IMG/VR virus record: IMGVR_UViG_3300030044_000014 | Coordinates: 1-64,000 of that record | Strand: one strand, 5' to 3' | DNA: 64,000 nt | Origin: a virus | Part shown: piece after piece, positions 5,501-53,994 of the stretch | Layout: each line of letters starts with the position of its first letter | Position numbering within the stretch: position 1 is the first letter of the stretch | Position numbers and translations under genes: made by a program | The notes under the pieces: generated by a model | What the model saw: only the letters and a program-made list of their open reading frames with translations | What the model was told of the DNA's origin: nothing | Database searches by the model: none

Positions 5501-5816
5501 TGCGATCACGATTGTAAACAATGGCATCACCCCTCTCGTGACCAAAACCGCAAACTACAATATTTTATCTACCGATGGAGCAATTCTTTGTGATACTTCG
5601 GGAGGAGCGTTTACTCTCACTCTACCTTCTCCCACTGGTCTATCTGGTAAAACATTCAAAATCATTGATTCAACTGGATTCTTTCAGGCTAACAACTTAA
5701 CTCTGGCTCCTAATGGTTCAGAGAAAATTGAGGGGTTGGCAGCAAGTAAAGTTCTTCAAACACCATGGGGTTGGTTCAATGTGGTAACTGATGGCGTTTC
5801 GTGGTTTGTAGGTTAA
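2532..5816 (+). CDS. large repeat-rich tail fibre / adhesin (1094 aa)
   Basis: A 1094-residue Thr/Ser/Ala/Gly/Asn-rich protein built of short beta repeats such as LTGDVTGSGPG, ATTNSTLTTLTALSLP and NGGTG, the composition of trimeric phage fibres. Around residues 430-590 there are near-identical 48-residue units (see the repeat at 3817-4310). The C-terminal ~100 residues (from TKTANYNILSTDG) form a more complex, Trp-containing domain, probably the tip or receptor-binding head. Ribosome binding site AAGGAGATAC is just before the ATG. It is followed by three glycine-rich adhesin-like genes, consistent with a host-recognition module. No endosialidase or chaperone autoproteolysis motif was recognised. 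Confidence 0.85.
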   Translation: MSSPGTLRFGQVATKPSPPPLGYDLIYVKTDDVLYIQDSSGVEVALGSASAITSLTGDVTGSGPGSAATTVNFVGGASAASIAAAATAIGTATPLNIPNTVVERDSSGNFAAGIITASLNGNANTATTSISFTGSLLGDVTGTQGATVVSFVGGSSAANVHSAELAANAATALNTASTIVKRDASGNFAANVITASLTGNVTGNLVGNVTGNVSGSAASFTGNLAGDVTGTQGATVVGAIQGTAVNPTAPTDAQFLVYQTGITSYKAVSMSGAATMSDTGVVTLTNTSVTGQLLTGYATGSNTPITATNSILTAFENLQAQIVATVGAAITSLIGDVTATGPGAATATVVALQGHAVSATAPTDAQILIWNSGTSSWTPESMSGDVHITDLGVTSIVATTNSTITTLSALSLPGSQVTGNIPGNAANITATTNSTLTTLTALSLPTTQLTGTLQAAQFPALTGDVTTTAGSLVTHLVATTNSTLTTLSALSLPTTQLTGTLQAAQEPAHTGDVTNTAGSLVLSLVATTNSTLTTLTALALPTTQLTGTLQAAQEPAHTGDVTNTAGSLVTHLIATTNSTLTTLSALSLPGSQVTGNIAGNAANVTGVVAIVNGGTGQTTANAGFDALSPMTTLGDIIYENATPTAARLPGNTTTAREFLTSQGTGTLANAPSWSSLVSGDIPNNAANTSGTAANVTATTNSTLTSLPSLTSATSLALLGSQIGGFTQGSVIFASATGTLTQDNANFYWNDTTLALGIGVQPATTAVLDIVNNSGTTKAIQVTGYGSNVGFSGREAGGTLASPSATTSGTNLTFFSGGGYGATAFAVASTGVVNIVAGATFTDTSMPTYIGFSVTPVGSVTSAEAMRIAPTGHLLLGTTTDGSQLLQVNGSALFAGIATLSVAPITSSLTGYLYGNGASQVTASTTIPGTAITGNISGNAANVTGIVNIANGGTDLSTAPTNGQLLVGNGTGYTLATLTQGTGISITNTAGAITIVNNGITPLVTKTANYNILSTDGAILCDTSGGAFTLTLPSPTGLSGKTFKIIDSTGFFQANNLTLAPNGSEKIEGLAASKVLQTPWGWFNVVTDGVSWFVG
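3817..4310 (+). repeat. tandem 144-bp repeats inside the fibre gene
   Basis: Successive 144-bp (48-codon) units encode ATTNSTLTT(L)xALxLPTTQLTGTLQAAQ followed by a TGDV...AGSLV segment. An 83-base stretch at 4008-4090 recurs exactly at 4152-4234. A 49-base stretch at 3961-4009 recurs exactly at 4249-4297, two periods away. Such identity at DNA level implies recent duplication or gene conversion. Confidence 0.9.
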
Positions 5817-5819
5817 TTT

Positions 5820-6683
5820 ATGTCTAAATATGTAAAACAATTATTCACTACATCTGGAACCTGGACTTGTCCTGCCGGTATTACAAACATAGTAGTTTGG
5901 GGTCGCGGTGGAACTGGCGGAGGCGGTGGCGGAGGTGGCGGATCTGGCGGCTCCACAACTAGCGGTGGAACTGGCGGTGGAAGTGGTGGACCAGGTGGAT
6001 CTCTAACTTCTCTATCTTTTCAACTAACAGTTGTTCCTGGAACCGCTTACACAATAACTATCGGACAAGGTGGAGCCGGTGGTGCCGGTGGTGCAGGTGG
6101 TGTAGCAGGCGGTGCTGGGGGCACTGGAAGTAATGGAATCGTAGGAACTCCATCATCTTTTGATGGTATTTTATCTTTTCAACCTAGTGCTCCTGGTTTT
6201 GGTGGTACTGGAGGAGTAACAGGCGGTGCGAATGGAGTTGCAGGCACATATGGTCCTGGAGAATTTCAAGGAACTCCATCTTTGTCTTTTGCTAGTGGCA
6301 ATGGTGGAGGCCGTGGTTCGGCGGGCTATGCTGGTTACGTACCAGTTGGAGCATGGAATCCATTTTTTACCTACGGCACTGCTGGCGCTGGCGGAAGTGC
6401 CACTTCGGGAATTGGGAGTGGAGGCGGTGGAGGCGGTGGTTCAGCACCAGTTGCAGGAGATGCGACTGGTCCAAACGGCTCTACTGGAGGAAATGGTGGT
6501 GCCTCTGGTTCTAATGGCGGAAATGCTCCAACAGCTTCTTCAGCAATTGCTGGATCAGGTGGACCCGGTGGAGGTGGTGGTGGTGCAGGTGGATTAAAAG
6601 CAACTACTGGAACAACTGGCGGTAACGGCGCAACTGGAGCAACTGGAAGTAACGGTCAGATTATTGTTACGTGGGTGGAATAA
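5820..6683 (+). CDS. glycine-rich adhesin-like protein, copy 1 (287 aa)
   Basis: The N-terminus has the signature TTSGTWTCPAGITNIVVWGRGG, followed by ~230 residues that are mostly Gly with Ala/Ser/Thr and a terminal GQIIVTWVE. This matches the glycine-rich domain of phage tail-tip adhesins and fibre-associated proteins (polyglycine II-type sandwich, as in T-even gp38-like adhesins). It begins 4 nt after the fibre stop. Two further paralogues follow (6683, 7646). Role: probable receptor binding at the fibre tip. It is unclear which copies are in the virion. Confidence 0.8.
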   Translation: MSKYVKQLFTTSGTWTCPAGITNIVVWGRGGTGGGGGGGGGSGGSTTSGGTGGGSGGPGGSLTSLSFQLTVVPGTAYTITIGQGGAGGAGGAGGVAGGAGGTGSNGIVGTPSSFDGILSFQPSAPGFGGTGGVTGGANGVAGTYGPGEFQGTPSLSFASGNGGGRGSAGYAGYVPVGAWNPFFTYGTAGAGGSATSGIGSGGGGGGGSAPVAGDATGPNGSTGGNGGASGSNGGNAPTASSAIAGSGGPGGGGGGAGGLKATTGTTGGNGATGATGSNGQIIVTWVE

Positions 6684-9124: not shown

Positions 9125-9648
9125 TGAAACAAATTACTATAGGTTTTTCTCGGGCTTGTACAACTTTTCCTATTTTCAGTTGGCTGATCCAATTAGTTCA
9201 AAAGACTAACTATTCGCATGTCTATTTGAAATATCACGATGAATATTTAGGGCAAGATATGATTTTTCAAGCATCGCATAGTGTTGTAAATTCTATGAGT
9301 TTGCCAGTGTTTTTAGCACAAGAAACTGTGGTTAAAGAATTCACATTCAATGTTTCAGATGTCACTTTTCTAAAAACTATGCAGTTTGCGGCAAATCAGG
9401 CTGGAAAGCCGTATGGAGTGCTTGAGATATGTGGACTTGCACTAGTTGAACTATGTGCCCTGATCGGAATAAAGATCCAGAATCCAGTGAAGGATTCTGG
9501 CCAGACCTACATCTGCGATCAATTAGTTGCGGCCATATTGAATGAATGTGAAAATGTTGTGTTGCCAACAAACATTAATAATATGATACCAAAGGATGTA
9601 TTTGCTTTGGTATCAACTCTACCCGCTACATTATCAATCGACAAGTAA
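9124..9648 (+). CDS. permuted NlpC/P60 (YiiX/YaeF-like) cysteine hydrolase
   Basis: 174 residues with the order seen in circularly permuted papain-like enzymes: an early His in YSHVYLKY (His32) and a late Cys in TYICDQLVAAIL (Cys131). That family includes amidases and peptidases acting on peptidoglycan stem peptides or lipids. It lies after the fibre genes and before the holin-like gene, so a role in cell-wall passage or lysis is possible. No signal peptide is seen. The fold assignment is fairly firm; substrate is unknown. Its 3' end overlaps the convergent gene by 15 bp. Confidence 0.65.
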   Translation: MKQITIGFSRACTTFPIFSWLIQLVQKTNYSHVYLKYHDEYLGQDMIFQASHSVVNSMSLPVFLAQETVVKEFTFNVSDVTFLKTMQFAANQAGKPYGVLEICGLALVELCALIGIKIQNPVKDSGQTYICDQLVAAILNECENVVLPTNINNMIPKDVFALVSTLPATLSIDK

Positions 9649-10017
9649 ATCGCCCAAAGCCATAACATCACTCACTGTGATGCCTTCGACTTTGGTGCCA
9701 AGTTCTGCAACGCTAATGGCTGGAACTGGAGCATCAATCTGAAGAAGCTCAGAAAGCTCAGCAGCATAAGCTTCTAAATTTACCGGATCAACGTTGATTT
9801 TCTTATTTGCATCTTCAACGAAATTACCCTCTGCATCTTTCGCGGCGTATTTCCTCACCAATTCATTGCGCATCTGCTCATACATGATAGCATGCTCATT
9901 AAACTTCAATACGAGCTTTTTAAGCTTCCATACAGTCGCGATGGGAATGTGCGGCGACTGGACAATCTTTTCTAAAACTTCTTTCGCAGCAGTCGTAGAT
10001 ACAGTCAATAATTTCAT
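9634..10017 (-). CDS. small helical phage protein, paralogue A
   Basis: 127 residues, mostly helical, with the pattern MKLLTV...AAKEVLEKIVQS..IPIATVWKLKKL...YEQMRNELVRKYAAKDAEG. It is clearly paralogous to the gene at 10166-10540 (shared KLP/IP...KLK..., E..Y..R...RYG/KYA and AxPxxSVxELG motifs, and a similar LLVD/FLVE end). Similar small proteins occur in many siphophages and myophages without known function. A good promoter (10048-10076) precedes it. Confidence 0.65.
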   Translation of the reverse strand: MKLLTVSTTAAKEVLEKIVQSPHIPIATVWKLKKLVLKFNEHAIMYEQMRNELVRKYAAKDAEGNFVEDANKKINVDPVNLEAYAAELSELLQIDAPVPAISVAELGTKVEGITVSDVMALGDLLVD

Positions 10018-10047
10018 GGACTCTCCTTGAGAATGTAGGTTTCAAAT

Positions 10048-10076
10048 ATCGTACCATACGTCTTATAATAAGTCAA
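10048..10076 (-). promoter_or_regulatory. sigma-70-like promoter for paralogue A
   Basis: On the minus strand, TTGACT (10076-10071) and TACGAT (10053-10048) are separated by 17 bp, 30 bp before the start codon of the downstream gene. Five of six -35 bases match consensus. Confidence 0.6.
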
Positions 10077-10165
10077 GATTATTTTATTACGTACCCATTC
10101 TTTAGTGAAATCATATAGTTAAAGGTAAATCTTAATCTTTGGAGTATGTATGGAACTTAATGCAA

Positions 10166-10540
10166 TCACTCAACAAGAAAGTCTAAGAGCATAAGCTCCT
10201 CAGACGAGATCGAGATATCGTTACCAAGCTCGCTGACAGAAAGCGTAGGGATAGCGATGTCTAGATCTAAGAGTTCGTTCAACTCGTTAACAAACAACTG
10301 ACCGTTATCGCCTTCCAAAGGGACATTGCCTTGATCGTCGGTATCTAGGCTACCGTCATCTTTCTTCTTGCCGTAACGGTTCAAAGACGCAAGACGAACT
10401 TCATCATACTTGCTGTACTCTTCGTCGATCTTTTTGATGATGGTCTTGAGTTTAAATGCAGCTTTAAGCGGCAGTTTCTGCGAATTAAGCTGAGTTAGAG
10501 TCGCTTTAAATTTAGGGTCGATCAACCTAGATAACTTCAT
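10166..10540 (-). CDS. small helical phage protein, paralogue B
   Basis: 124 residues, paralogue of 9634-10017. N-terminal MKLSRL..PKFKATLTQL...KLPLKAAFKLKTI, a Y..YDEVRLASLNRYGKK motif and a closing IPTLSVSELGN segment align with it. Both genes have their own promoter, so the pair seems to form independently expressed units rather than part of the long leftward operon. Function unknown. Confidence 0.65.
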   Translation of the reverse strand: MKLSRLIDPKFKATLTQLNSQKLPLKAAFKLKTIIKKIDEEYSKYDEVRLASLNRYGKKKDDGSLDTDDQGNVPLEGDNGQLFVNELNELLDLDIAIPTLSVSELGNDISISSEELMLLDFLVE

Positions 10541-10562
10541 TTAGGCTCCTTTTTCTGATAGG

Positions 10563-10591
10563 ATTATACTATGGGCAATTTCTTCCGCCAA
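10563..10591 (-). promoter_or_regulatory. sigma-70-like promoter for paralogue B
   Basis: Minus strand TTGGCG (10591-10586), 17 bp, then TATAAT (10568-10563), 22 bp before the ATG of 10166-10540. A perfect -10 box with ideal spacing. It overlaps the first codons of the divergent holin-like gene. Confidence 0.7.
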
Positions 10592-10891
10592 CTTTTTAGT
10601 GAAAACTCAGGTGTGAGCATGATGCGAGTCATGTCTCTCCTAGCACTATTTGCGGCAATCGGAATTGGATTCTACGGAATGACAAAACTCCCAGTCGATT
10701 ATAGTGGAATCACTATGTTGACAGGTGTATTCTTGAGTGCTGCCTTCGGTGGTAAGGTTATGCAGAAACGCATCGAAGCTAACGGTGCTAAGTCTGATAC
10801 CGAGATGACCACACGCCCTAATGAGGCTATGGCCCCGGTCTCTGAGAAGACTGTCACAAAGATCGACGTTAAGGTCGATAATCCAGACTAA
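10571..10891 (+). CDS. holin-like two-TM membrane protein (106 aa)
   Basis: Two hydrophobic segments (about residues 18-38 and 45-62) joined by a short polar turn, then a hydrophilic charged tail. The pattern FFRQLFSE...MRVMSLLALFAAIGIGFYG...AAFGGKVMQKRIEA matches a group of short phage membrane proteins usually annotated as holin or lysis-associated. It neighbours a cell-wall hydrolase candidate (9124) and a coiled-coil membrane protein (11161), which fits a lysis cassette. Holin activity is inferred only from topology and context. Confidence 0.6.
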   Translation: MGNFFRQLFSENSGVSMMRVMSLLALFAAIGIGFYGMTKLPVDYSGITMLTGVFLSAAFGGKVMQKRIEANGAKSDTEMTTRPNEAMAPVSEKTVTKIDVKVDNPD

Positions 10892-12033: not shown

Positions 12034-12450
12034 CTAGCTCTTATTGGGTCTGGTGTGTTCCACCAGACCCTTTATTTTTTCAGCCACGTATTCCGGATCG
12101 TTAAGTAATCGATTCAATCCGGAGGGGTGGGGCAATTCATAAAAGTTCACACCTAGCATCTTCAATGCGGTAGCGGCAGTTTTTCCTACAGCTATAATTG
12201 GTACATCTTTGTGGTGTGCAATGATCATTGCAAGATGGTTAAGTCTACCCTTGATCTCTTTCATCGTCAGTTGTCTATTGCCTGGTGTTGGTGTATTGAC
12301 CAGATTGTGCATAATAGATATGTTTATCCCTGCCTTTTCAATCCATTCGTGCAACGTTTTACCACTACCGGTGGACATATCGAATGCTCCATTGCCCTTA
12401 GACGCTTGCGATGGATTAGATCCAATGAATAAAGCTGTGCGCGGTTTCAC
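12034..12450 (-). CDS. uracil-DNA-glycosylase-superfamily-like protein
   Basis: 138 residues. A GTG start at 12450 is preceded by GAGGA. The N-terminal ALFIGSNPSQAS, a middle IIAVGKTAATALK segment and a late PHPSGLNRLL are arranged like the motifs of the UDG superfamily (family 4/MUG-type: motif A GxNPS, strand IVAxG, motif B HPSxxN). It lacks the Fe-S cysteines of family 4. Possible roles are removal of uracil or a mismatched base, or a nucleotide-binding non-enzymatic role. It lies next to dCMP deaminase, whose product dUMP raises uracil pressure. Fold call is moderate; activity unproven. Confidence 0.6.
   Translation of the reverse strand: MKPRTALFIGSNPSQASKGNGAFDMSTGSGKTLHEWIEKAGINISIMHNLVNTPTPGNRQLTMKEIKGRLNHLAMIIAHHKDVPIIAVGKTAATALKMLGVNFYELPHPSGLNRLLNDPEYVAEKIKGLVEHTRPNKS
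12046..12080 (+). terminator. rho-independent terminator after 11635 gene
   Basis: Perfect 10-bp stem GGGTCTGGTG / CACCAGACCC (12046-12055, 12061-12070) with a 5-nt loop, followed by TTTATTTTTT. The hairpin DNA also encodes the C-terminus of the convergent gene. Confidence 0.9.
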
Positions 12451-13547
12451 GATGTCCTCGGTTTAATCTGTAAATGATAAAAATCACCAACCGTAGAGCA
12501 ATTGATTTCTAAGTCTAGCATGGCTGAACTATCTTCAAAGTCACTATATTTTTCTTTAAAATAAAACTCACTTATGCCTGCCTGCCACAACATTCTGATA
12601 CACTTAGTGCAAGGAGATAGGGTGCAATAAAGTATACAATCACCAGTCTTAACTCCTGATCGCACTGCGTTACATAATAAGTTTGTTTCTGCGTGTATTA
12701 TATAATTATATTTTTCTGGACGAGATGTGGGTAGAGAACTGTCTGGTCCACCCCTAACGAACCCATTAAAACCTTCTGCCGTAACCGCTAATGTTTTAGG
12801 GTCTATTAATAGGGCTGCAACTTTAGTATGTATGTCGTGTGACTGTGACGCTATAACTACAGCTCTATCGTGATAGATTTTAAGTTTTTTCTCTGAGATC
12901 GGGTTATTGGTTTGGTTAAACTTGTTATTTTTAACTATTCTCTGTATTTGTTCTAAAAAATGTGTTGCAGAGTAATCTAATTTCATAGTGTTGCAAGTAG
13001 CACAACTTGTGACACAGTTTGATGTTTGGTACCCAATAGAGTTATCCAATCTATCGATTCCATTGTATTTAACTATTGTGTGTTTATTTTTTTGAATGTT
13101 GGCAGGGGAAGCGTCACAGTAGAAACAATTTTGAAAAATAAGCCCCTTAAACTCATCTAAGGTTAGATTAAAATCATAATTTCTAGCCTTAGCATTGCCC
13201 TTATAATCTAGAAAAATATTATTGATAGATGTCGTTTTTAGCTGTTCGTCTGTTCGAGCATATCTATTGCCACAGTGGCCACATCCACTTGAGGTGCCAT
13301 TAATTAAACTTGCAACTTTTATTGACTTAAGAACACCACATTTACACTTTACATCTACATATCGTGTTTTTTTTGATTTTAAGTTTATCTTAATGTAAGG
13401 AAGAGACATTATTGTCCATTTATTTATGACAGAATTTAAGGCAATATTCTCTGTCTTAGATGGACGTTTCATACTCTTATTTAACCTCTGCCTACAAAGG
13501 CATTTCTCTATCTTTGATTCACACGTAGGATAGATACACCGACGCAT
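12447..13547 (-). CDS. HNH endonuclease-dCMP deaminase fusion
   Basis: 366 residues in one uninterrupted frame. Residues ~1-210 are an HNH homing-endonuclease type protein: zinc-ribbon-like CxCG...GCGHCG (68-92), then CFYC (141-144), GIDRLDN (163-169) and CATC (182-185). Residues ~217-366 are a complete dCMP/cytidine deaminase: KKLKIYHDRAVVIASQS start, zinc site HAE (285-287) and PCTKC (312-316). The deaminase converts dCMP to dUMP for dTMP synthesis by ThyX (58612). The fusion could have arisen by a homing gene inserting at the deaminase start with loss of the stop. Whether both halves are active is unknown. Confidence 0.85.
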   Translation of the reverse strand: MRRCIYPTCESKIEKCLCRQRLNKSMKRPSKTENIALNSVINKWTIMSLPYIKINLKSKKTRYVDVKCKCGVLKSIKVASLINGTSSGCGHCGNRYARTDEQLKTTSINNIFLDYKGNAKARNYDFNLTLDEFKGLIFQNCFYCDASPANIQKNKHTIVKYNGIDRLDNSIGYQTSNCVTSCATCNTMKLDYSATHFLEQIQRIVKNNKFNQTNNPISEKKLKIYHDRAVVIASQSHDIHTKVAALLIDPKTLAVTAEGFNGFVRGGPDSSLPTSRPEKYNYIIHAETNLLCNAVRSGVKTGDCILYCTLSPCTKCIRMLWQAGISEFYFKEKYSDFEDSSAMLDLEINCSTVGDFYHLQIKPRTS

Positions 13548-16317: not shown

Positions 16318-17115
16318 TCACACCTCACCGAGCATCTTTTTTACCATCTCTTCGTTCTTCTCATAGATGTGTAAGCTGTGCACAGTGTGAGTGTAATGTC
16401 CTTTAGTGAGGTTAGGATACACATCTTTAAGTTCTGCAACCATCTTATCCATGAGACCGCAGAACCACGGAAGGTCGTATACAAGACCCAGAGTGAGATC
16501 GTTCGAGCGCATGACGACAGATAGATGTAACTGGTCGTTGCGGATCAAGAAGTTGCCATGCATCGTGCAAGTCTGATCCTTATTGCCGACCCACTGATGT
16601 TCTGGAAGAGAGAAACGTAGGATAGCCTGACGAGTATCTTTATCAGCAAGAAGAGACTGCTTCGCCCACTCCCAAGGAGTGCGCATAACGTTTTCTTCTA
16701 CTAGGAAGTGCGCAGTTTCTCCGTTTTCGTAGACACCTTCGTGGACAACTGTTTGGCGCTCAAAATGAGATCCGCTTGACTTTTTAGACCAGATAAGATG
16801 GCCGTACGCGCTGTTAACAGTGCCGTCAGGGTTAGCGAGACTGAGCCAAAATTTTGAGGCTCGTCCGAAATCCTCTGCAGAATTCGTGCAGGAATCATAT
16901 AGCTCCACTTCTTTCCGGGTGTATGAAGCAATAGTTTCGTTGCGCTTTGGATCTCGAGTAACGATAGGATCATCAGTAGGTCCCAAAACCCGGAATGAGT
17001 AGTCGAGTACTTCTCTGCAAGGTTGCCCGCGTGGCGCGCTCTTGACGTCAGGGTTGTAGTAGACATCCGCGAGGGTACCGAGATAGGCTTCCGAGACATT
17101 TTTATATACTTTCAT
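16318..17115 (-). CDS. ThyA-family pyrimidine methylase, dCMP-hydroxymethylase-like
   Basis: 265 residues with thymidylate-synthase architecture: PRGQPCRE near residue 28, catalytic Cys183 in QTCTMHGNF, RSND (203-206), and the C-terminal HTVHSLHIYE (243-252). In dTMP synthases the base-reading residue is Asn (PFN); here the aligned segment reads VYD with Asp214, the residue used by T4 dCMP hydroxymethylase to bind cytosine. This points to dCMP as substrate (known family rule; assignment inferred). The phage already encodes ThyX for dTMP. Alternatives are a divergent dUMP methylase or a dCMP C5-methylase. It shares 4 bases with the next ORF's GTG. Confidence 0.75.
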   Translation of the reverse strand: MKVYKNVSEAYLGTLADVYYNPDVKSAPRGQPCREVLDYSFRVLGPTDDPIVTRDPKRNETIASYTRKEVELYDSCTNSAEDFGRASKFWLSLANPDGTVNSAYGHLIWSKKSSGSHFERQTVVHEGVYENGETAHFLVEENVMRTPWEWAKQSLLADKDTRQAILRFSLPEHQWVGNKDQTCTMHGNFLIRNDQLHLSVVMRSNDLTLGLVYDLPWFCGLMDKMVAELKDVYPNLTKGHYTHTVHSLHIYEKNEEMVKKMLGEV

Positions 17116-23489: not shown

Positions 23490-24053
23490 TTATACTTTCT
23501 TGTATCCCGGAAGTTTCTTGCCTTTTACACGGCAGAGTTTGAGTGCCTTTTCGATGCTGGCACTAGAGAATGGATTAGCGACGGATTTCATGTTCTTCCT
23601 GAGCATCTGTGCCCAGTAGAACTCTGCGAAAGGAATAGTAGACTTGTCGAAGCCACCCAACTCACGTACCATCCAAGCGAGTGAACGGTAAGGGTTATCA
23701 GACATACAGCGGATGTCAGCAGGCAGATCATACGGACTATGGGGACCTTTACCGAAGGCGTCATATAAGAAGACATACTTCATCTTCTTCATCTTTGCCC
23801 AGAATTTCTTCTTGCCCATCTTAGAGTAGTCGGCTTTTACTTCAACCACTACATGACGGTGGCCACATTCCCACATAGCTCTAACATAGTGATGGTGGTC
23901 GATTAGATACATCAATCCACCAGGTCCTACGATGACTGGAACTTTCTTCTCAGAGTTATGTTCTCCGCGTTTTACCTTGGCGATCTTGTCATCAACATCT
24001 TTGAATCCTAGAGAGAACTGGGTAGGTTTTAGATCTAGAAGTAGTTTCTTCAT
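23490..24053 (-). CDS. ParB-like nuclease family protein (ParBc_2 type)
   Basis: 187 residues with the motif order of the putative ParB-like nuclease family: DLKPTQFSLGFKDV, KVPVIVGPGGLMYLIDHHHYVRAMWE, LPADIRCMSDNPYRSLAWMVREL and PFAEFYWAQMLR. It is usually a stand-alone protein in bacteria and phages; biochemical role is unsettled (nuclease or CTP-binding ParB fold). The His-rich IDHHHYVRA stretch is the best candidate active or nucleotide-binding site. Overlaps the upstream gene by one base. Confidence 0.8.
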   Translation of the reverse strand: MKKLLLDLKPTQFSLGFKDVDDKIAKVKRGEHNSEKKVPVIVGPGGLMYLIDHHHYVRAMWECGHRHVVVEVKADYSKMGKKKFWAKMKKMKYVFLYDAFGKGPHSPYDLPADIRCMSDNPYRSLAWMVRELGGFDKSTIPFAEFYWAQMLRKNMKSVANPFSSASIEKALKLCRVKGKKLPGYKKV

Positions 24054-24599: not shown

Positions 24600-26027
24600 T
24601 TACACCTTTACAGGATAAGCACGAGCACGCACTTGATCCAGAGTTGATTGGTTAGTCAACACACCGTTCAAGAAGACCTGCTCAAGCAGTCCACCTTTTT
24701 CGTCAGCAGCAGATACTTGATCTGTTGTGACGTAACGACCGTTGATGAAATCAAGACGCATTCTACCCTTGTGCGATTTCTTGCCCGAGTCAGTAATAGG
24801 GTCCTTAACGATGTCGCGCTCTTCTCCATTAACTTCTACGTAAGTGGTCTTAACAGCGAAGCCTTGGTCGTCACGGCTGTGCGATTGCAACAGCAATCCA
24901 CCAACACCGATAACGAGATTAGAAGACGCAAATCCCATGCCCTTTAGACGCGCGAGGATGCACTCGTAACGGTCAAAATACATTCCGTCGCCGTAGATCA
25001 GGCCTACTTTAGGATTCAATTCTTGGAAGCCTAATGCGTTCGTTGTCGTACCGAACTGGCGAGCCAACAGACGCATAGCACCGAGGTTCTCAGCAGAACC
25101 AGCAGGAGCAGACGGGTTTCCACAGATGATGAGCTCTGGGTCACCAGAGTCCGGGCGGAATACCACTTTGCCGTCACGAGCCATGATGCGCTTGTAAAGT
25201 ACCTGAGTGAAGTTCTCAAGAACATTCCACAGGTTATAGGTATCAGACACGATAGAGACGATGCCGGTAGGGTAAGTGTTGAGCATGTGCTCAAACGCCT
25301 TCAACTCATGTTCCTGACCGTACGAACACATAACTGAGTGCTCAGATGCAGGGACAGAAGCACCGATAAGGCCAGTCGCAGCGTAGTTCTCCATCAAGAA
25401 CTTAACAGCCGGAACGGTATCTGTTCCACGGAAGTTGATCAAGTGAGCAGCACCAGAGATAGCCGCAGTCTCCTCAGACGAGCAACCACGGTATCCGAAG
25501 TCATGGACAGCCCAATCGCAGTGGAGACGGTTGCCTACAGTTTCATCCGCGTATGTGTCTACAAGGTTACGCAACTTCATAGAGTACGAACCAACAGTTG
25601 TCGGGTTCCATACTTTAAGAACGAGCGACTCAAAGAAGCCAACTGTCCAAGCGAAGTCAGGATGAGTATTGGTCATCGTGAGAAGAACGTTCTTAACGGG
25701 CAGAACAGTTCCTTCTGGAACAGCTTTGATCTCCAAGGGGATATAACCAAGGTCTGCCAATGCGTGCATCTTTTCAAAGATGTGGCGCGGGGTAGGTCCG
25801 AGAATCGATTCACGTACCTGCAAGAACTCGTTCACCATTGGGTGAGTGATCTTCTGTGCCAAGTAGTTCTTCAAGATAGGCTGAAGCCCATTGAAGAGCG
25901 TGAACGGAATCTTCTTGTCGGAGCGAGCAACGAGATAGGCGTAGGCCTTAGTGATCCCCTCTGGGAACTGCTCCATGTGCCCCATCTTATATACGTCAGT
26001 GCAAAGTAATACGTTATCGTTAATCAT
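24600..26027 (-). CDS. nadV: nicotinamide phosphoribosyltransferase (NAMPT/NadV)
   Basis: 475 residues, full family length. Visible active-site landmarks in order: HDFGYRGCSS (~175-184), FRGTDTVPA with Asp203, SEH with His230 (the autophosphorylated His in human NAMPT), SDTYNLW (261-267), FRPDSGDP with Arg291 and GGLLLQ. It condenses nicotinamide with PRPP to NMN, the rate-limiting NAD salvage step. Together with the PRPP synthetase two genes upstream it can turn nicotinamide released by NAD-consuming defence systems back into NMN. An NMN adenylyltransferase would complete the route (see 52387). Confidence 0.95.
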   Translation of the reverse strand: MINDNVLLCTDVYKMGHMEQFPEGITKAYAYLVARSDKKIPFTLFNGLQPILKNYLAQKITHPMVNEFLQVRESILGPTPRHIFEKMHALADLGYIPLEIKAVPEGTVLPVKNVLLTMTNTHPDFAWTVGFFESLVLKVWNPTTVGSYSMKLRNLVDTYADETVGNRLHCDWAVHDFGYRGCSSEETAAISGAAHLINFRGTDTVPAVKFLMENYAATGLIGASVPASEHSVMCSYGQEHELKAFEHMLNTYPTGIVSIVSDTYNLWNVLENFTQVLYKRIMARDGKVVFRPDSGDPELIICGNPSAPAGSAENLGAMRLLARQFGTTTNALGFQELNPKVGLIYGDGMYFDRYECILARLKGMGFASSNLVIGVGGLLLQSHSRDDQGFAVKTTYVEVNGEERDIVKDPITDSGKKSHKGRMRLDFINGRYVTTDQVSAADEKGGLLEQVFLNGVLTNQSTLDQVRARAYPVKV

Positions 26028-26035
26028 GTTTCTCC

Positions 26036-26245
26036 TTAAAAGTTAAATGTAGCTGTTACGTAGAAGCGGACTTCGCCCTCGTCTTCTTCTACTGAGTAGT
26101 CGAACGTTGTACCATCATCAAAATGTTCTGCGAGAGCATCAACCTTAGCCTGCGCAAGAGTGTGCTCCACAGACATATCAACCCCTGGGATCTTCTTCAC
26201 AACGTGAATTGGTTTCTTCTTCTTAGGGTCGATGGTATCGCTCAC
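26036..26245 (-). CDS. small hypothetical protein (69 aa), GTG start
   Basis: The GTG at 26245, inside the TGA of the macro-domain gene (GTGAGC) and behind GGTGGAAGC, is the best start; the longer reading would overlap the macro gene. Lys-rich N-terminus (DPKKKKPIHVVKKIPGVDM) and beta C-terminus (RFYVTATFNF). Unknown function between macro and NAMPT genes. Confidence 0.5.
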   Translation of the reverse strand: MSDTIDPKKKKPIHVVKKIPGVDMSVEHTLAQAKVDALAEHFDDGTTFDYSVEEDEGEVRFYVTATFNF

Positions 26246-26751
26246 GCTTCCACCATATCTGGATCGCAGACGATCCAATTGATTCTTGGATAATCTTTTA
26301 AGAGGATTTCAAGGATAAGTTCTGAGTCTTTCCAAGGTACAGCGAACAGACCAGAGTTAAACTTATTAGAGTAGACGTCGATCTGTGGGTACGTGTCGCT
26401 TGGGTGGGCGAGATAGATCTTACGTAAGAGATCACGGAGAGCTAGAGTTGTATTGATCTTGATCTCTTCTACGCCGTCTTTCTTAGGTCCGTAGTCATGA
26501 GATGTAACGATCCAGCCGACCCAGTGAGCTTCGGATTCAGGGAACGATGATAGACCAGCAAGACCTACAGCCGTTCCACGCTGCATGTTAGCAGACTCGC
26601 AGAACATCTTGTAGTCGAGAAAGCTCTGAAGATACTTCTCTTTGAAAGGCTTGGCAATGCCAGAACCCCAGACACCCTGCGAGTTGCAGGCATGAATGAT
26701 TACACTCTCACGAGGAGCGTCAAAGAGACTCATCTTCTTGTGGGTTACCAT
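26242..26751 (-). CDS. macro-domain protein (ADP-ribose binding)
   Basis: 169 residues. IIHACNSQGVWGSGIAKPF is the macro-domain loop 1 (Asn and the GxG turn that contact ADP-ribose), and YSNKFNSGLFAVPW matches the second ligand loop. Relatives hydrolyse ADP-ribose-1''-phosphate, O-acetyl-ADP-ribose or ADP-ribosyl groups. Placed between PRPP synthetase and NAMPT, it could process ADP-ribose derived from NAD cleavage or reverse ADP-ribosylation. Coupled by overlap to 26745. Confidence 0.8.
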   Translation of the reverse strand: MVTHKKMSLFDAPRESVIIHACNSQGVWGSGIAKPFKEKYLQSFLDYKMFCESANMQRGTAVGLAGLSSFPESEAHWVGWIVTSHDYGPKKDGVEEIKINTTLALRDLLRKIYLAHPSDTYPQIDVYSNKFNSGLFAVPWKDSELILEILLKDYPRINWIVCDPDMVEA

Positions 26752-27533
26752 ACTTTATATCCTTCCGGGTTCCTGAGCAGAGAGTTCGTGGTGTGAATAT
26801 CACGGATCCCTGCATCAAATAATACCTGCTTCCCTTTTGAGAATAGTCCGTGTGAGACTGCTAGGTCGATTGGTCCTGTCTTATATTCTTTAAGTGCTTC
26901 AGCTACTTTGATGAAGGTCATCCCGCCGTCGCAGATGTCGTCGATGATTAGGACACTCTTGCCGTAGAGATCCTGGTGAGATGTATTAACTTTAAGTCCA
27001 GTGATCTCGCCCGTCTGCTGGTTGCGAACCTTCTCGCACCAGATGAACTGCTTACCAGTGGTCTTAGCGTAGCGCTCAGCTGCGCCTTTGTCTGGGTAAC
27101 ATACAAAGTCATAACCGATGGTGTTAAACAGAGTCTGATGAAACTCTTTGGGAGTTGTAGACTCCATTGGAAAGACGAGATCAGACTTGGAGTGTGGGTC
27201 AAAAGCCTCGATGCGCGTGATACCTGCGTTATATAGGATCTCTGTGAATGTCTTGAGCGCGAAGCTCAACTTATTGTTTACTTCCTTATCTTGACGAGCG
27301 TAAGGAAGATAAGGACATACAAGATCAACACTGGTATCGAAAACGTCATAGCATAACTGCGCCACTTGGCATACTTGGATTAACTCAGCTTCATTCTCAA
27401 ACAGCCATAGTATATATGTGACGCTGTTCGGATCCATCTTTGACTCATCAATCTTCCAGACCTGGGAAGTTCCATCTGGAAAGATGGTTATCGTAAAACT
27501 TACTTCTTCGCCGTCGCTGATGAGCTTAATCAT
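26745..27533 (-). CDS. prs: ribose-phosphate pyrophosphokinase (PRPP synthetase)
   Basis: About 262 residues from the ATG at 27533 (GAGAGA upstream, overlapping the stop of 27530). CPYLPYARQDK is the conserved flexible-loop region and VLIIDDICDGGMTF is the PRPP-binding loop (type I PRTase motif). It forms PRPP from ribose-5-phosphate and ATP, feeding NAMPT (24600). It is shorter than cellular Prs (~315 aa), as is usual for phage versions associated with nadV. Confidence 0.9.
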   Translation of the reverse strand: MIKLISDGEEVSFTITIFPDGTSQVWKIDESKMDPNSVTYILWLFENEAELIQVCQVAQLCYDVFDTSVDLVCPYLPYARQDKEVNNKLSFALKTFTEILYNAGITRIEAFDPHSKSDLVFPMESTTPKEFHQTLFNTIGYDFVCYPDKGAAERYAKTTGKQFIWCEKVRNQQTGEITGLKVNTSHQDLYGKSVLIIDDICDGGMTFIKVAEALKEYKTGPIDLAVSHGLFSKGKQVLFDAGIRDIHTTNSLLRNPEGYKVW

Positions 27534-28030
27534 GTGTTCTCTCCCAGTAAGAAATCTAAGTGGCGCCACATAGCATCGTGCTCGCCGTCTTTCTTGAGCA
27601 TCAGCTTGAAGTGCGGATACTCTTTCTTGTACATGTCAAGCTGTTTCGCTTGATCTAGTACAGACCGTTCTACGTTTGCTATACGGTCAGCCAGCTTCAG
27701 GGTCGTAGCCTCTCTAGAGGCTTGAATCTTAGGGTAGGTCTTTTCGTGACGCTCTTTGCGGTTCTTACCAGGCTCGTTTGTTACTCGGTGAACTAGATCT
27801 GCTACATGCCTACCGAATGTAATCTCGATCTGGAACACTGTTGCATCTGTGTCTTCGACTACATCATGCAACCAGGCTGCGACCTGAAGGTCCTCGCTAT
27901 CAAACTTGAAGCGGCGCAAGACTTCAGCTACGGCAGCGAGATGCTCTGTGTAGGGAGAATTCTCCCCGTATTTCTGGTCTTTGTGCTTTGCTGCTGCAAA
28001 TGCCGCTGCTGCTTGAATAGCGAGGCTCAT
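27530..28030 (-). CDS. HD-domain hydrolase, SpoT/MESH1-like
   Basis: 166 residues. HD signature: YTEHLAAVAEVL (His30), AAWLHDVVEDT (His55-Asp56) and TTLKLADRIANVE (Asp115), the arrangement of the (p)ppGpp hydrolase domain and of small alarmone hydrolases or MESH1. No synthetase domain. It may hydrolyse (p)ppGpp, relieving the stringent response, or act on NADPH like some MESH1 proteins. First gene of the PRPP/NAD block. Confidence 0.85.
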   Translation of the reverse strand: MSLAIQAAAAFAAAKHKDQKYGENSPYTEHLAAVAEVLRRFKFDSEDLQVAAWLHDVVEDTDATVFQIEITFGRHVADLVHRVTNEPGKNRKERHEKTYPKIQASREATTLKLADRIANVERSVLDQAKQLDMYKKEYPHFKLMLKKDGEHDAMWRHLDFLLGENT

Positions 28031-28031
28031 A

Positions 28032-28145
28032 TTAGTCTTTCTTCTGTGTTGCCGCTTCTTTAATCAACTTGATACCAACGTATAGTACGAGAGAAGCTAC
28101 GCCAAGGATCAATACTCCGATACCGATATCAACTAATGCGATCAT
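28032..28145 (-). CDS. small single-TM protein (37 aa)
   Basis: Strong ribosome binding site AAGGAG upstream of MIALVDIGIGVLILGVASL; one transmembrane helix and a short basic tail (KLIKEAATQKKD). Its TAA is one base before the next gene's ATG. Probably an inner-membrane miniprotein; function unknown. Confidence 0.75.
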   Translation of the reverse strand: MIALVDIGIGVLILGVASLVLYVGIKLIKEAATQKKD

Positions 28146-28172: not shown

Positions 28173-28200
28173 AAAAGGCACCACCCGGAGGTGATGCCTT
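28173..28200 (-). terminator. rho-independent terminator after the SPFH gene
   Basis: Minus-strand stem AAGGCATCACC / GGTGGTGCCTT with a TCCG loop (one G-T-type pair), followed by TTCT. It separates the SPFH gene from the PRPP/NAD block. Confidence 0.8.
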
Positions 28201-28211
28201 CAAAGATATAC

Positions 28212-29465
28212 TTAGTTGTCTTCAGACTTGTTTGCTGCAGCAGGCACTTTAGTGCGTGGAGCTTTAGCAGGTTGATCTTTGTTCATGCGATCGTTCAAAT
28301 CCATGAAGGACTTAAGACCGATTGCGTCGAAGGGGTTCATTGCCGATTGACCGTTAGATCCACCGCCGATTACCATCATGCCTGGGAACTGAACACCAGC
28401 AAGCTCATGTGCTACACCGATGCGAGTCTCTTTGTCGATCGTCGCACGCTCAAGGGGAGTAAGACCTGCTTGAACTTTGAGGCGGTTAACTTCAGCAAGA
28501 GCTTTACCGTTCGTTACTTCAGCCGCAGCATCTTGTTCAGCTTGTTTGCGTTTCAGCTGAGATACTTCGAACTCTTTCTGAGCGATAGTGACTTCTTTGA
28601 TCTTCTCAACTTCTTGCTTAGCTTTCTCAATCGCGATCTGAGCATTACCTTGTTCGCGTGCAGTGATCGCATCTTGCTTAGCTTTTTCAGCGTTAGCTTT
28701 AGCGACAACTTTCATCTGCTCAGCTTCTTTTTTCTTCTGGATCAGAGCATCGATAGTCTGGTCGAAGTCGATGTCTTTGATAACGAACTGGATGATGGTT
28801 ACGTTATAAGCTTTGAGCGGAGAGATCTTGCGAACAACTGGCTGTCCAGCTTTGTCAAGCTTGATGTTGACTTCACGAGTCACGAACTCATTGCCGTCTG
28901 CATCTTTCTCTTTGAATTCCTTAGCTTCAGTCTCGTAGATCCCGTTCTTTACTTGATCTTCCACAAGTGAAGTGAACTCAGAGCGACGAGTAGAGTACGA
29001 CTCTTCAGCGCGCATCAGAGTAGCCGTCTGCATCAAGGCTTCAGCAACAGTCTGACGAATCAGATCGTGCTTGACGCGCTCGTAAGACTTGAAGTCTTTA
29101 TGCAGGAGCTTCTGAGTCTCAGGGTCAGAAGGTAGACGGAATTTGATGCCGCCAGACACCTTCGCAGTACCGCCGTCGTTGAAGCGAATGTCGATCGTGT
29201 CTGACTCAGCACCTTTGCCGCCGTCAAGATCTGACTTCGAGAAGTAGTACATGTCCGACACGTGGTAAGTTGTTACGTTACCGAAGAGCTTCAGATACGT
29301 ACCTGACTCATTGTGAACAGTTACATCACCAGTAACAGCTGCCTGTTTAATCTGATAATAGCCTTGGTCATTCGTCGTGAACACTTCACGTCCGACCGTT
29401 GCCAGGATAAGAACTGCGACCAATCCGCCTACGGCGAGACCAATCAATTTAACTCGTGCGTCCAT
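28212..29465 (-). CDS. SPFH/band-7 (prohibitin-like) membrane protein
   Basis: 417 residues. N-terminal TM helix (LIGLAVGGLVAVLILATVG), an SPFH beta domain (~residues 40-230), then a long Ala/Glu/Lys/Gln coiled coil (~235-330) and a polar C-terminus. SPFH proteins oligomerise into membrane rings that scaffold proteases such as FtsH. Large T4-like phages also carry SPFH genes. Here it could protect phage proteins from membrane proteases or organise membranes during infection (inference). Confidence 0.85.
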   Translation of the reverse strand: MDARVKLIGLAVGGLVAVLILATVGREVFTTNDQGYYQIKQAAVTGDVTVHNESGTYLKLFGNVTTYHVSDMYYFSKSDLDGGKGAESDTIDIRFNDGGTAKVSGGIKFRLPSDPETQKLLHKDFKSYERVKHDLIRQTVAEALMQTATLMRAEESYSTRRSEFTSLVEDQVKNGIYETEAKEFKEKDADGNEFVTREVNIKLDKAGQPVVRKISPLKAYNVTIIQFVIKDIDFDQTIDALIQKKKEAEQMKVVAKANAEKAKQDAITAREQGNAQIAIEKAKQEVEKIKEVTIAQKEFEVSQLKRKQAEQDAAAEVTNGKALAEVNRLKVQAGLTPLERATIDKETRIGVAHELAGVQFPGMMVIGGGSNGQSAMNPFDAIGLKSFMDLNDRMNKDQPAKAPRTKVPAAANKSEDN

Positions 29466-38668: not shown

Positions 38669-39430
38669 TTATCGAATCGGTATATTGCGACCCTTTAGTT
38701 CTTCTAAACTCCAAACTTCTACATTGATAGAAGGATAGTCTTGCTTAAGTAATTCATACTTAACTTTGGCGTCATCTTGCCACCAACCTTTTATCTCAAC
38801 GTAGTGGTCTCTACTTCTATCATAGAAGTCAATTATATAAGTTCGACCATCAGAAAGATTAAAAGGAACTTGCCAGTCAAAATCTACCTTATTAGTATTT
38901 AAGTAGTTAACTACATTGCGCTCCCATTTTCCTTTACATTTAAGAATATCTAGTGTCTTCCAATGTTCAACTTCATAGATATTAGAACAGTTAGTGACCC
39001 TTTTTAAGATAAGTTCTGGGTCATGGTTACGAGCTATGATTTTTTCTAAGTTGAGACAACCACAGGATTTAGCATTACCTGAAGTAAGTGAACCTGCTCT
39101 GATTGTGGTTTCTTTGCCACAGTCACACAAACATCTATAAACAACTCCCCTTTTAGGGAGTTGAATTCGTTCTAATGCTAAAAGCCTATTAAGCTTTTGA
39201 CCAGTGAGATTTTTATTGCGTGTTATACGTATCTTCTCTAAGTTTAGACAACCACAAGATTTGGTATTACCGGTTACTAGTCCATAACTTCTTACAATAA
39301 GAGAATTACCACAATCGCATTTACATTCATAAGCAGTTTTGTCCAAACCACTTTCTTTTCCTGTAAGACGCTTAATTGTAAGTAAACGCCCAAATCTTTT
39401 ACCTGTATGATCTTTAGCTCCATTTTTCAT
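38669..39430 (-). CDS. putative homing endonuclease with twin Cys motifs and PD-(D/E)XK-like domain (253 aa)
   Basis: Two copies of a Cys motif (CKCDCG...KSCGCL and CLCDCG...KSCGCL, ~35-130) of the type fused to homing nucleases, then a C-terminal domain with WERNVVNYL..NKVDFDWQVPF, IIDFYDRSRDHYVEIKGWW. The Asp...Glu-x-Lys pattern (IIDF ... VEIK) is that of PD-(D/E)XK/Vsr-like nucleases, unlike the HNH domains elsewhere in the window. A free-standing gene between 38188 and the VWA gene. Confidence 0.75.
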   Translation of the reverse strand: MKNGAKDHTGKRFGRLLTIKRLTGKESGLDKTAYECKCDCGNSLIVRSYGLVTGNTKSCGCLNLEKIRITRNKNLTGQKLNRLLALERIQLPKRGVVYRCLCDCGKETTIRAGSLTSGNAKSCGCLNLEKIIARNHDPELILKRVTNCSNIYEVEHWKTLDILKCKGKWERNVVNYLNTNKVDFDWQVPFNLSDGRTYIIDFYDRSRDHYVEIKGWWQDDAKVKYELLKQDYPSINVEVWSLEELKGRNIPIR

Positions 39431-43396: not shown

Positions 43397-44227
43397 ATGG
43401 CTGCAATCACTGAGCTAACAGATAATCTGGCATACGGAGTCGATGTAAAAAATCGCCGAATCTACTTTGGTGTTAACTTAGATACAGCAGAGTCCACTGA
43501 AGCCACCGACTTTACTTTAGCCTCGGTAGAGATGGCTGTTAGAGCCATGCATAGAATGGCTTCGGATGCACCTAATAAACCTATTGAACTACACATGTCT
43601 TCGTATGGTGGAGACACGTACGCGATGCTCCGGTTGCACGACGAGATCTTGGCATGCCCTTGTCAGGTTCGCTTCTTCGGAAGCGGTCCTATCATGTCCT
43701 CGGCCACTTTTATAATGTCTGTCTGTGACGAGCGTAATCTGCATGCTAACACCGTTGTAATGGTTCATGAACTTACTTCTGGTGGCGGTGGAAAACACAC
43801 TGACATTAAGATCGACGCTGCTGAGAACATGCGACTCATGGACCAACTCTGTGGTATCTATGAAGCCAACTCTCGTATGCCCAAGGAGTTCTGGTTAGAC
43901 ATCTGTCAACGGGACGTGTACCTGACGGCCGGCGAAGCAGTGTCATTAGGTCTCGCCGATCGCATCTTAGAACCTAAGAAACGTGGTAACTTACGTAAGG
44001 CTCGCCAAGTAGCTATGCGTAAAGAAGTAGATGTTAAAGAGATGAAGGACTTAGTGAAGAGCTTGTATGAGCGTACGAGCCGCACTCGTATTCCTAAGCT
44101 AGAATTCAACGAGATCAAGAAAGAAGTAGCTGATCCACATCTGTTCGTAGATGAAAGCAAAACGCCTGAGAAATCCGTCTTGGATGCTCAGGCGCCCATC
44201 GTTCAGCTAGATGTAAAGAAAGATTAG
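43397..44227 (+). CDS. ClpP-like serine protease 1 (276 aa)
   Basis: ClpP/crotonase fold: ELHMSSYGGDTYAM (substrate groove), GPIMSSATFIMS with nucleophile candidate Ser101, VVMVHELTSGG with His124, and a C-terminal extension of ~90 mostly basic residues (KRGNLRKARQVAMRKEVDVK) absent from cellular ClpP. It could serve as a virion maturation (prohead) protease or as a ClpP homologue in host takeover. A paralogue is at 55945. It is transcribed alone from a strong promoter. Confidence 0.85.
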   Translation: MAAITELTDNLAYGVDVKNRRIYFGVNLDTAESTEATDFTLASVEMAVRAMHRMASDAPNKPIELHMSSYGGDTYAMLRLHDEILACPCQVRFFGSGPIMSSATFIMSVCDERNLHANTVVMVHELTSGGGGKHTDIKIDAAENMRLMDQLCGIYEANSRMPKEFWLDICQRDVYLTAGEAVSLGLADRILEPKKRGNLRKARQVAMRKEVDVKEMKDLVKSLYERTSRTRIPKLEFNEIKKEVADPHLFVDESKTPEKSVLDAQAPIVQLDVKKD

Positions 44228-52386: not shown

Positions 52387-52809
52387 TCATTTAAACTTCT
52401 CCACTGCTCTGATTGCAGAGCTAGAAATATGAACCAAAGTGCGATCACAGATGAAATATACGATCGGAATCGTAAGTCCAAGGTCCTCACACCAGTACTG
52501 CTGAGTCTTCTCTGCATCTAGATCTTTGCCGTCACGTAGGCCACGAATGATTGCTACTGCGTCAACATGTTTTGCAAAGTCAGGAAGTAGTCCGTCATAA
52601 GTTTGCACATCAACATACTGATCGTTATATCTAACGTGTTCTGGAATCCTAAAGATTGGATTGTTATTGTGAGGGTTATTGAAGTTCTTTTCTGGGTTAT
52701 TACCAATGCCAATAATAACCTTATCGAACAAGAGCAATGACTTATTTAGTATTTCTTCGTGACCTTTATGCCACGGGTTAAAGCTTCCTGGATATATTGC
52801 TACTCTCAT
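52387..52809 (-). CDS. cytidylyltransferase-like / CoaD-like adenylyltransferase (140 aa)
   Basis: MRVAIYPGSFNPWHKGHEEIL carries the (T/H)xGH motif; VQTYDGLLPDFAKH...AIIRGLRDGKDLDAE.Q and the C-terminal ISSSAIR follow phosphopantetheine adenylyltransferase (CoaD) closely. The same fold includes NMN adenylyltransferases, which would complete NAMPT-based NAD salvage, but the IIRGLR and YDGLL motifs favour CoaD. Cellular CoaD is ~160 aa. Substrate should be tested. Confidence 0.8.
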   Translation of the reverse strand: MRVAIYPGSFNPWHKGHEEILNKSLLLFDKVIIGIGNNPEKNFNNPHNNNPIFRIPEHVRYNDQYVDVQTYDGLLPDFAKHVDAVAIIRGLRDGKDLDAEKTQQYWCEDLGLTIPIVYFICDRTLVHISSSAIRAVEKFK

Positions 52810-53269: not shown

Positions 53270-53944
53270 TTATTCGTCAGTGCCCGAGCATGTATGAGGA
53301 GCAAGGTAAGAGATATACACGTCGCAATCGAGCTTAACGATCTTCTGAGCGAGGTGTAACTTCACCATCTCTTCAGAGTCAACAGACCATTCGGTATCGG
53401 TGATCTTTTTTTCGTAATCAGCCTTAGACATACCAATCACAGAGTAGATGGCTTCGTCGAACTCATCAGATGATCTCTGTAAGCCCTCGATGGCACGAGT
53501 ATTGTGAACTAGTTTAGCAGTTGCGTGTTGCCAGAACATCTCGTGCATAATCATTCTAGAGTTTGCTACGACAAGGCGATGTAGACTGGTTGCTTGGATG
53601 TATCCTGCAGCAGAGCCACAGTACTTACAGATAACTACGACATTGGGGAGTTGAGCTATTAGCTTTCTGAGTACGACTGCTTGGTCGTATTGTCCGCCAC
53701 CAGAGTTAATAATAAGGTAGATATTCTGGTCTTGTGGAACCATCACGCGCTTACCAATGATGGCATTGAACCAAGTGTTGACGGATACCGCGGTGAACTC
53801 ACCCTCGAGCACCATCGTATTTTGAGCTGTCATGGTGACTGTTTCAATTGGCTTATTAGGAGTTACGGCTGCGACAACCACTAGGGTGAAGAACAATGAC
53901 AAGAAAAGAATTGACATTCTTTTAAGGATCTGTCTGACGATCAT
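53270..53944 (-). CDS. membrane-anchored SppA/ClpP-like serine protease (224 aa)
   Basis: Start at 53944 (MIVRQILKRMSIL), GGAG 6 nt upstream. TM helix (about residues 10-27), then a ClpP/SppA-fold domain: LIINSGGGQYDQAVVLRK, KYCGSAAGYIQATS (candidate nucleophile Ser in CGSAAG) and RMIMHEMFWQ (His). Localised to the membrane with the catalytic domain probably periplasmic. May degrade membrane or signal peptides, or entry-blocking proteins. Third member of this fold in the window. Confidence 0.75.
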   Translation of the reverse strand: MIVRQILKRMSILFLSLFFTLVVVAAVTPNKPIETVTMTAQNTMVLEGEFTAVSVNTWFNAIIGKRVMVPQDQNIYLIINSGGGQYDQAVVLRKLIAQLPNVVVICKYCGSAAGYIQATSLHRLVVANSRMIMHEMFWQHATAKLVHNTRAIEGLQRSSDEFDEAIYSVIGMSKADYEKKITDTEWSVDSEEMVKLHLAQKIVKLDCDVYISYLAPHTCSGTDE

Positions 53945-53994
53945 AATTAACTCCAGGTTCATCTTCTAATGATACCCTGGATAAGGATTAGACA

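Follow-up and report, generated by a model that had tools for sequence, protein, structure and literature searches.

What might a virus gain from a nicotinamide transferase, a macro domain, a phosphoribosyl-pyrophosphokinase-like kinase and an HD hydrolase packed into a single block? These genes occupy the minus strand at 24600-28030 of the window, a stretch of 64,000 nucleotides covering positions 1 to 64,000 of IMG/VR virus record IMGVR_UViG_3300030044_000014. A first-pass annotation of the window had proposed one transcript in which NAMPT and a phosphoribosyl pyrophosphate (PRPP) synthetase, Prs, turn ribose-5-phosphate and nicotinamide into nicotinamide mononucleotide (NMN), with a role in countering NAD-depleting defences. 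The four gene identities, their order (HD, Prs, macro, NAMPT) and their place all hold up in the list of open reading frames (ORFs) and in matches to Pfam, PHROGs and NCBIfam. We conclude that the operon probably serves to restore the coenzyme NAD+ once bacteria have destroyed it to stop infection. The counter-defence theme agrees with reports that pairs of the ADP-ribose pyrophosphokinase Adps and the transferase Namat, known as NAD+ reconstitution pathway 1 (NARP1), form NAD+ from ADP-ribose (ADPR) and nicotinamide and counter NAD+-depleting defence (PMC12774641, PMC13232231). As to the chemistry, we give a probability of about 0.5 to a NARP1-like operon whose steps include an Adps-type kinase, a swapped transferase, a macro-domain feeder and the HD hydrolase.

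The block has a diverged relative, designated L012/L013, that shares the order HD-kinase-macro-transferase, with identities to the window proteins of 61% (HD), 56% (kinase), 69% (macro) and 40% (transferase). L012 also keeps the small downstream gene (86/89 aa, 56% identity). The first-pass annotation had proposed looking for the gene order, and for linked HD and macro genes, in other phages, and this relative carries both. L012 has no DNA match in the phage collection, which may omit near records.

The kinase matches the ribose-phosphate pyrophosphokinase family (phrog_619, 2.1e-58); the Pfam model Pribosyltran scores above its cut-off and two Prs-specific Pfam models score just under theirs. 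A scan of IMG/VR with the kinases of the window and of L012 yielded 15 loci, namely the window copies (2), the L012/L013 copies (2), ten loci with a complete kinase (L021-L030) and L031, which ends before any transferase. Wherever a transferase was in view among the loci so found (L012 and L021-L030), it carries the Namat motif that we took from PMC12774641 for labelling (11 of 11). To place the kinase, we built a tree of 90 sequences, comprising 79 kinases that stand beside Namat, 10 beside Nampt-type transferases and E. coli Prs, with near-duplicate or repeated loci, the incomplete L031 and L092, and the short kinase of L009 left out beforehand. The kinases of the window and L012 are sisters (support 100/99), within a 32-row clade (100/99) in which 29 members stand beside Namat and three beside Nampt-type enzymes; the Adps of phage SPbetaL1 lies in a neighbouring 19-row group and that of phage DyoEdafos is more distant. 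Because its clade neighbours are mostly Namat-paired and its sister stands beside a canonical Namat, the kinase looks, by sequence, more like an ADP-ribose kinase than a PRPP synthetase, and we treat it as Adps kin whose identity as Adps falls short of proven. This kinship points to ADP-ribose, not ribose-5-phosphate, as the substrate, and argues against the proposed synthesis of NMN by the NAMPT/Prs pair.

The transferase tells a different story. It matches NAMPT_N and NAPRTase as well as phrog_448 (1.6e-155), and in a tree of 100 sequences, made by a quick method with SH-aLRT support only, it clusters with nine further sequences from phages (98) and with six of bacterial-like type (99), separate from the Namat rows. 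At the Namat clamp positions R40/A362/S391/F392/Y396 (SPbetaL1 numbering) the window enzyme has K/G/G/L/S, while the mapped catalytic-core positions are kept except for S190, which is G. An F or Y occupies position 392 in all 83 Namat-labelled rows and in none of the 17 Nampt-labelled ones, with labels that themselves derive from the motif pattern. The Namat SCH motif, GSX-phi-X-phi-X-phi-TRD with its aromatic adenine-stacking residues, is present in L012 and replaced by GGLLLQSHSRD in the window. Judged by its residues and its place in the tree, the transferase is not a Namat and belongs to the Nampt branch. Fold does not decide the matter, human NAMPT (Z 44.8) and Namat (Z 44.6) being tied as its structural relatives. 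In the same tree, NadV of Haemophilus ducreyi pNAD1 (L149, 2953-4440) nests in the Namat group without the aromatic clamp residues, so the clamp motif follows descent imperfectly.

Comparison of the two trees suggests how a Nampt-branch enzyme came to stand beside an Adps-like kinase. Partner labels change nine times on the kinase tree (bootstrap range 9-9; seven changes forced by well-supported branches), about as scattered as chance, since shuffled labels give a mean of 9.6, whereas Nampt/Namat labels change only twice on the transferase tree. Well-supported sister kinases with differing partners are L003/L012 (100/99), L005/L120 (100/100) and L057/L118 (95/92). This conflict indicates that transferases were exchanged beside a persisting kinase lineage, and L012, which has the HD, kinase, macro and small genes but a Namat, supports in-place replacement in the window phage.

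A kinase is a near neighbour in 10 of 10 Nampt-type phage loci of the window transferase group; the three viral members of the bacterial-like Nampt group, L066-L068, revealed no kinase in loci of 13 kb. Two of these three records hold a candidate for the last step from NMN to NAD+: L066 has a NadM-like gene, whose coordinates place it beside the transferase, and L068 a NadR-like gene; neither reaches its NCBIfam cut-off. The 11 records that combine a kinase with a window-like transferase (the ten Nampt-type phage loci plus L009, whose motif the labelling pattern missed) yielded no recognisable NMN adenylyltransferase; several of these records are short, and for them the absence is weak evidence. 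PF01467 is without a match in eight of the 11, CoaD-like in the window's sister contig and HldE-like in L008 and L060. The sole PF01467 match in the window's source record and its sister, which may be incomplete, is CoaD-like (TIGR01510, 100.9 bits; cut-off 103.3). We considered this protein (window 52387-52809) as an NMN adenylyltransferase and rejected it; its 36 PDB matches are phosphopantetheine adenylyltransferases except two weak ones. It carries HxGH rather than TxGH, the more usual motif of CoaD-like adenylyltransferases. A kinase without an NMN adenylyltransferase fits either direct NAD+ synthesis or NMN that is completed by the host.

Between kinase and transferase lies the macro domain (PF01661, 7.8e-06, above cut-off), for which AlphaFold2 gives a model with a mean confidence (pLDDT) of 91.0. 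Its best solved relative both by sequence (7.8e-10) and by Foldseek (1e-13) is Poa1p, the yeast ADP-ribose-1''-phosphatase. The protein has the ALC1-class macro fold, and Poa1p residues H23 and F152, which along with S30 are positions mutated in the PDB entries, are invariant in 12 aligned macro relatives as H20 and F136. The DarG model aligns with residues 1-60 or fewer, and the likeness to DarG and TARG1 is one of fold only (Z 16-19). Since Poa1p converts ADPR-1''-phosphate to ADPR (PMC6397177) and NAD+ phosphorylase toxins yield ADPR-1''-phosphate (PMC8883491), this compound is a good candidate substrate.

The macro gene is linked to NARP-type operons well beyond this block. For 11 of the 12 aligned macro relatives, a NARP-type transferase is no more than 6 kb away, the exception being L016. 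For a count, we took 47 records of at least 78.7 kb, of which 21 have PF01661 matches at one place; omitting the window's sister and L012, both found also by the macro query, leaves 19. The macro gene lies within 2.5 kb of the transferase in 11 of the 19 (0.98 expected) and within 1 kb in six (0.56 expected), counts reached in 0 of 20,000 uniform random placements under a null that treats records as independent, although some (L021, L023, L029) are related. Outside this count are the genes of L084 and L137, called macro by our own hidden Markov model, and of L042, called so from the depositor's label 'phosphatase'; the three have no Pfam match at 0.01. Gene orders vary, from kinase-macro-transferase (L098) and kinase-macro-Band7-Namat (L022) to Namat-macro (L024, L028, L030, L083), and several macro genes abut their neighbours, overlapping them or standing apart by only a few bases. 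In cultured Vibrio phages, a gene deposited as 'phosphatase' stands directly before the kinase. We found no discussion of macro-NARP operons in the available text of the literature searched; the figures of PMC9503650 might draw a macro-NadV neighbourhood.

The HD hydrolase matches PF13328 (HD_4, 2.8e-14), with human and fly MESH1 as its best solved relatives (1e-13). Residues H30, H55, D56, E59, D60, D115 and N119, which include the HD-domain metal and catalytic residues expected of a MESH1/SpoT hydrolase, are invariant in 7 of 7 phage relatives. HD_4 matches occur in 10 of the 47 records. With the window's sister and L012 again omitted, they lie within 5 kb of the transferase in 4 of 8 (0.62 expected, P 0.002), two of the four falling below the Pfam cut-off, and within 2.5 kb in 1 of 8 (P 0.30). 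The linkage of HD to these operons is thus weaker than that of the macro domain. The first-pass annotation had stressed the combination over single genes; the macro link proves stronger than it claimed and the HD link weaker. An orphan bacterial HD relative cleaves alarmones and NADPH, raising NADH (PMC9765508). By analogy, a part in NAD supply would fit such an NADPH-cleaving enzyme, and an anti-alarmone action is equally possible.

Several observations pull away from an ADP-ribose-based operon with a macro-domain feeder. E. coli Prs falls among the phage kinases (97/90 with L045/L050, on a long branch) and the deepest forks of the kinase tree are weak, so that the tree is no proof of ADP-ribose specificity. 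At kinase column 168 (274-aa form) the split by partner type outdoes 99 of 100 label shuffles, and a change of specificity is possible; as a residue marking partner type, this best column (0.84, with 1 of 100 shuffles as high and relatedness uncontrolled) was rejected, among other grounds because the kinases of the tested Namats differ there (S in SPbetaL1, G in DyoEdafos), and we do not rely on it. The transferase lacks the entire adenine clamp of Namat. The double clamp mutant R40A/F392G of Namat loses about 17-fold of its activity on pyrophosphorylated ADPR (ADPR-PP) and keeps NMN synthesis (PMC12774641), so by that rule the window enzyme should prefer PRPP. A published graft of the clamp into human Nampt failed, which implies that further determinants exist, and on balance we lean very slightly towards ADPR-PP over PRPP as the likely substrate. 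For the macro domain, Poa1p S30 corresponds to V27, and VIA-align ties Poa1p with TARG1 (Z 18.9 each; DarG 17.6). Lastly, L016 shares synteny with the window on either side of this slot, which in L016 holds the macro gene only: neither a kinase nor a transferase adjoins that gene, and the 59.9-kb record of L016 has no NAPRTase match; the macro enzyme can therefore have a job of its own.

These points give some weight to two other explanations. In the first, the product of the kinase is PRPP, formed from ribose-5-phosphate; the Nampt-type enzyme yields NMN, from which host enzymes complete NAD+, and macro and HD are side activities. The place of the transferase in its tree and its clamp residues favour this PRPP route, as do column 168 and the reported ability of Namat itself to form NMN from PRPP (PMC12774641). 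Against it stand the sister kinase beside a canonical Namat and the distribution of NMN adenylyltransferases, with none recognised in the kinase-bearing phages and NadM- or NadR-like genes in most of the viral Nampt-type records without a linked kinase; we consider it a serious contender that falls short of even odds. In the second, which we rate slightly lower, the macro domain acts as an independent counter-defence that binds or destroys ADPR-based signals, for example type II Thoeris effector ligands, or removes ADP-ribose from DNA or proteins; its grouping with NAD+ repair would then reflect that both answer NAD+-using immunity. The solitary macro gene of L016 and the close folds of TARG1 and DarG speak for such a role, and the tight linkage to NARP-type operons and the phosphatase Poa1p as best sequence and Foldseek match speak against it. 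Hydrolysis of such ligands would also release ADPR, so a feeder and an independent enzyme overlap in effect. That nucleotide-metabolism genes of a large phage came together here by chance and share no function is very improbable given the gene order of L012, the macro linkage statistic and the overlapping start and stop codons, even though neither enzyme type is rare (the transferase matches 1935 phage records and the kinase 1460) and macro domains are common in myoviruses (PMC9503650).

For the NARP1-like operon, we propose the following steps. The Adps-type kinase, if its kinship is a guide, would pyrophosphorylate ADP-ribose released by host NADases to ADPR-PP, and the Nampt-branch transferase, sitting in the usual Namat slot, would couple nicotinamide to ADPR-PP to give NAD+. 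The macro domain, tied to these operons by its linkage, would strip 1'' groups from ADP-ribose (the phosphate of ADPR-1''-phosphate and possibly acyl or nucleic-acid adducts) and so feed the kinase with ADP-ribose. This putative chemistry parallels the role of RyDEP of phage DyoEdafos, which is encoded between Adps and Namat and turns 2'-cyclic ADPR (2'cADPR) into ADPR used for NAD+ synthesis (PMC13232231). In what is the weakest step, the HD hydrolase may lower alarmone levels or convert NADP(H) to NAD(H). The boldest form of this proposal, which we rate as distinctly doubtful, is that phages have a second lineage of transferases that, without a clamp, form NAD+ straight from ADPR-PP, and that the macro phosphatase extends recovery to the ADPR-1''-phosphate of NAD+ phosphorylase toxins or to other capped ADP-ribose. 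If so, defences that leave ADPR-1''-phosphate, a substrate that Adps alone is not expected to use, would be covered. If the NARP1-like operon as a whole is right, phage NAD+ reconstitution would be modular, combining a kinase that stays the same with a transferase open to exchange and with add-on feeders (RyR in one phage, macro in others) matched to the leftovers of each defence, and a phage 'Prs' beside a 'NAMPT' would not have to imply PRPP and NMN. The window pair would also be a direct test case for the published clamp rule as a way of telling NAD+-makers apart from NMN-makers.

The layout of the block is summarised in the table below. The window comes from a 115-kb virus contig, and a 175-kb IMG/VR contig, its sister, encodes the same proteins at 100% identity; DNA similarity of the window to phage records is limited to a 65-base tRNA match. 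The start/stop overlaps noted in the first-pass annotation are confirmed as ATGA (HD/kinase), ATGGTAA (kinase/macro) and GTGA (macro/small ORF), the first of which makes the ATG at 27533 (262 aa) a likelier kinase start than the GTG at 27569. That annotation listed the four enzymes and missed the 69-aa ORF, the 37-aa hydrophobic peptide and the upstream hairpin. The 69-aa ORF has no Pfam or PHROG match (a longer TTG form served as query). A 56-nt stretch at the hairpin folds at -28.6 kcal/mol (z -6.6). Spacing and this hairpin support a single transcript, as had been claimed; promoter-like matches number 11 against 11.1 expected by chance, so the claim is based on those two features only.

Table. 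Features of the NAD+ block and its upstream edge in the window.
Feature	Positions	Strand	Basis
SpoT/MESH1-type HD hydrolase (small alarmone hydrolase), 166 aa	27530..28030	-	PF13328, MESH1 structures, invariant residues
Phosphoribosyl-pyrophosphokinase-like kinase, Adps kin, 262 aa	26745..27533	-	phrog_619, tree; start ATG 27533
Macro domain, Poa1p-like, 169 aa	26242..26751	-	PF01661, Poa1p by sequence and Foldseek, AlphaFold2
Small ORF, 69 aa, GTG start overlapping macro stop	26036..26245	-	sequence
NAMPT-type nicotinamide transferase, 475 aa, AAGGAG in front	24600..26027	-	phrog_448, transferase tree, clamp residues
Hydrophobic peptide, 37 aa, right before HD with TAATATG junction; may be an operon member	28032..28145	-	sequence only
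Terminator-like hairpin, 12-bp stem then T-rich tail, between Band-7 gene and operon	28174..28201	-	folding

Other genes recur around such operons. SPFH/Band-7 genes stand beside or inside them in the window (28212-29465), in L012 (4505-5701), in L021, L023 and L029 (about 14.0-15.4 kb), in L022 between macro and Namat (9506-10867) and in L153 two genes after a plasmid-borne Nampt (5949-6635). In phage Phass-1 (L043, 4471-5978), an isochorismatase-family gene deposited as nicotinamidase overlaps the kinase gene and adjoins a Namat-like transferase, and in an Acinetobacter 'phage' contig with bacterial-looking flanks (L049, 3099-6316), a Prs, a Namat-motif transferase and a deposited NMN adenylyltransferase/ADPR pyrophosphatase are consecutive. 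In L055, kinase and transferase flank a 187-aa ORF (5436-5999) that has no Pfam match itself and resembles the window proteins at 12447-13547, 38669-39430 and 57990-58586, one of them with a deaminase domain. A putative ParB-like nuclease (23490-24053; PF08857, 1.3e-45) lies three ORFs downstream of the window transferase. Elsewhere, the window encodes two unrelated thymidylate synthases, ThyA-type (1.2e-10) and Thy1/ThyX (6.7e-45), at 16318-17115 and 58612-59349, and three Clp-protease-like genes and a subtilase (43397-44227, 53270-53962, 55945-56661 and 53995-54819).

Set against known systems, the HD hydrolase shares its metal and catalytic residues with MESH1 and small alarmone hydrolases but differs from the aligned MESH1 sequence in the segment VTNEPGKNRKERHEKTYPKIQAS, which is identical in the window and L012. 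The macro domain has the fold of Poa1p and the equivalents of its H23 and F152; it departs from Poa1p at S30 and in K130, which is conserved in at least 90% of the 12 phage relatives and is not found at that place in the Poa1p alignment. NARP2 consists of Nampt and an NMN adenylyltransferase. The Nampt-branch transferase resembles this pathway and the NadV-NadM and NadV-NadR salvage routes, but the window has an Adps-family kinase in place of a recognised NMN adenylyltransferase. Rheinheimera phage Barba19A offers a likeness by gene listing, with nicotinate phosphoribosyltransferase, Prs and macrodomain consecutive as gp033-gp035 and protein lengths (496/268/167) equal to those of L012; these phages are of 80-84 kb, their authors propose ordinary nucleotide salvage, and among the Barba isolates prs and pncB are reported only for Barba19A, with a macro gene listed for Barba18A (PMC6715854, 2019). 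The NARP1 of SPbetaL1 and DyoEdafos likewise sets a Prs-family kinase next to a Nampt-family transferase (PMC12774641, PMC13232231), and the window kinase is kin to Namat-paired kinases; the window transferase differs in its Nampt-branch origin and in lacking the selectivity clamp. Neither NARP1 nor NARP2 is matched in full by the window operon. The DyoEdafos version with RyDEP (PMC13232231) also inserts an ADPR-processing gene between kinase and transferase, a slot in which DyoEdafos has a RyR domain and the window a macro domain of putatively similar role.

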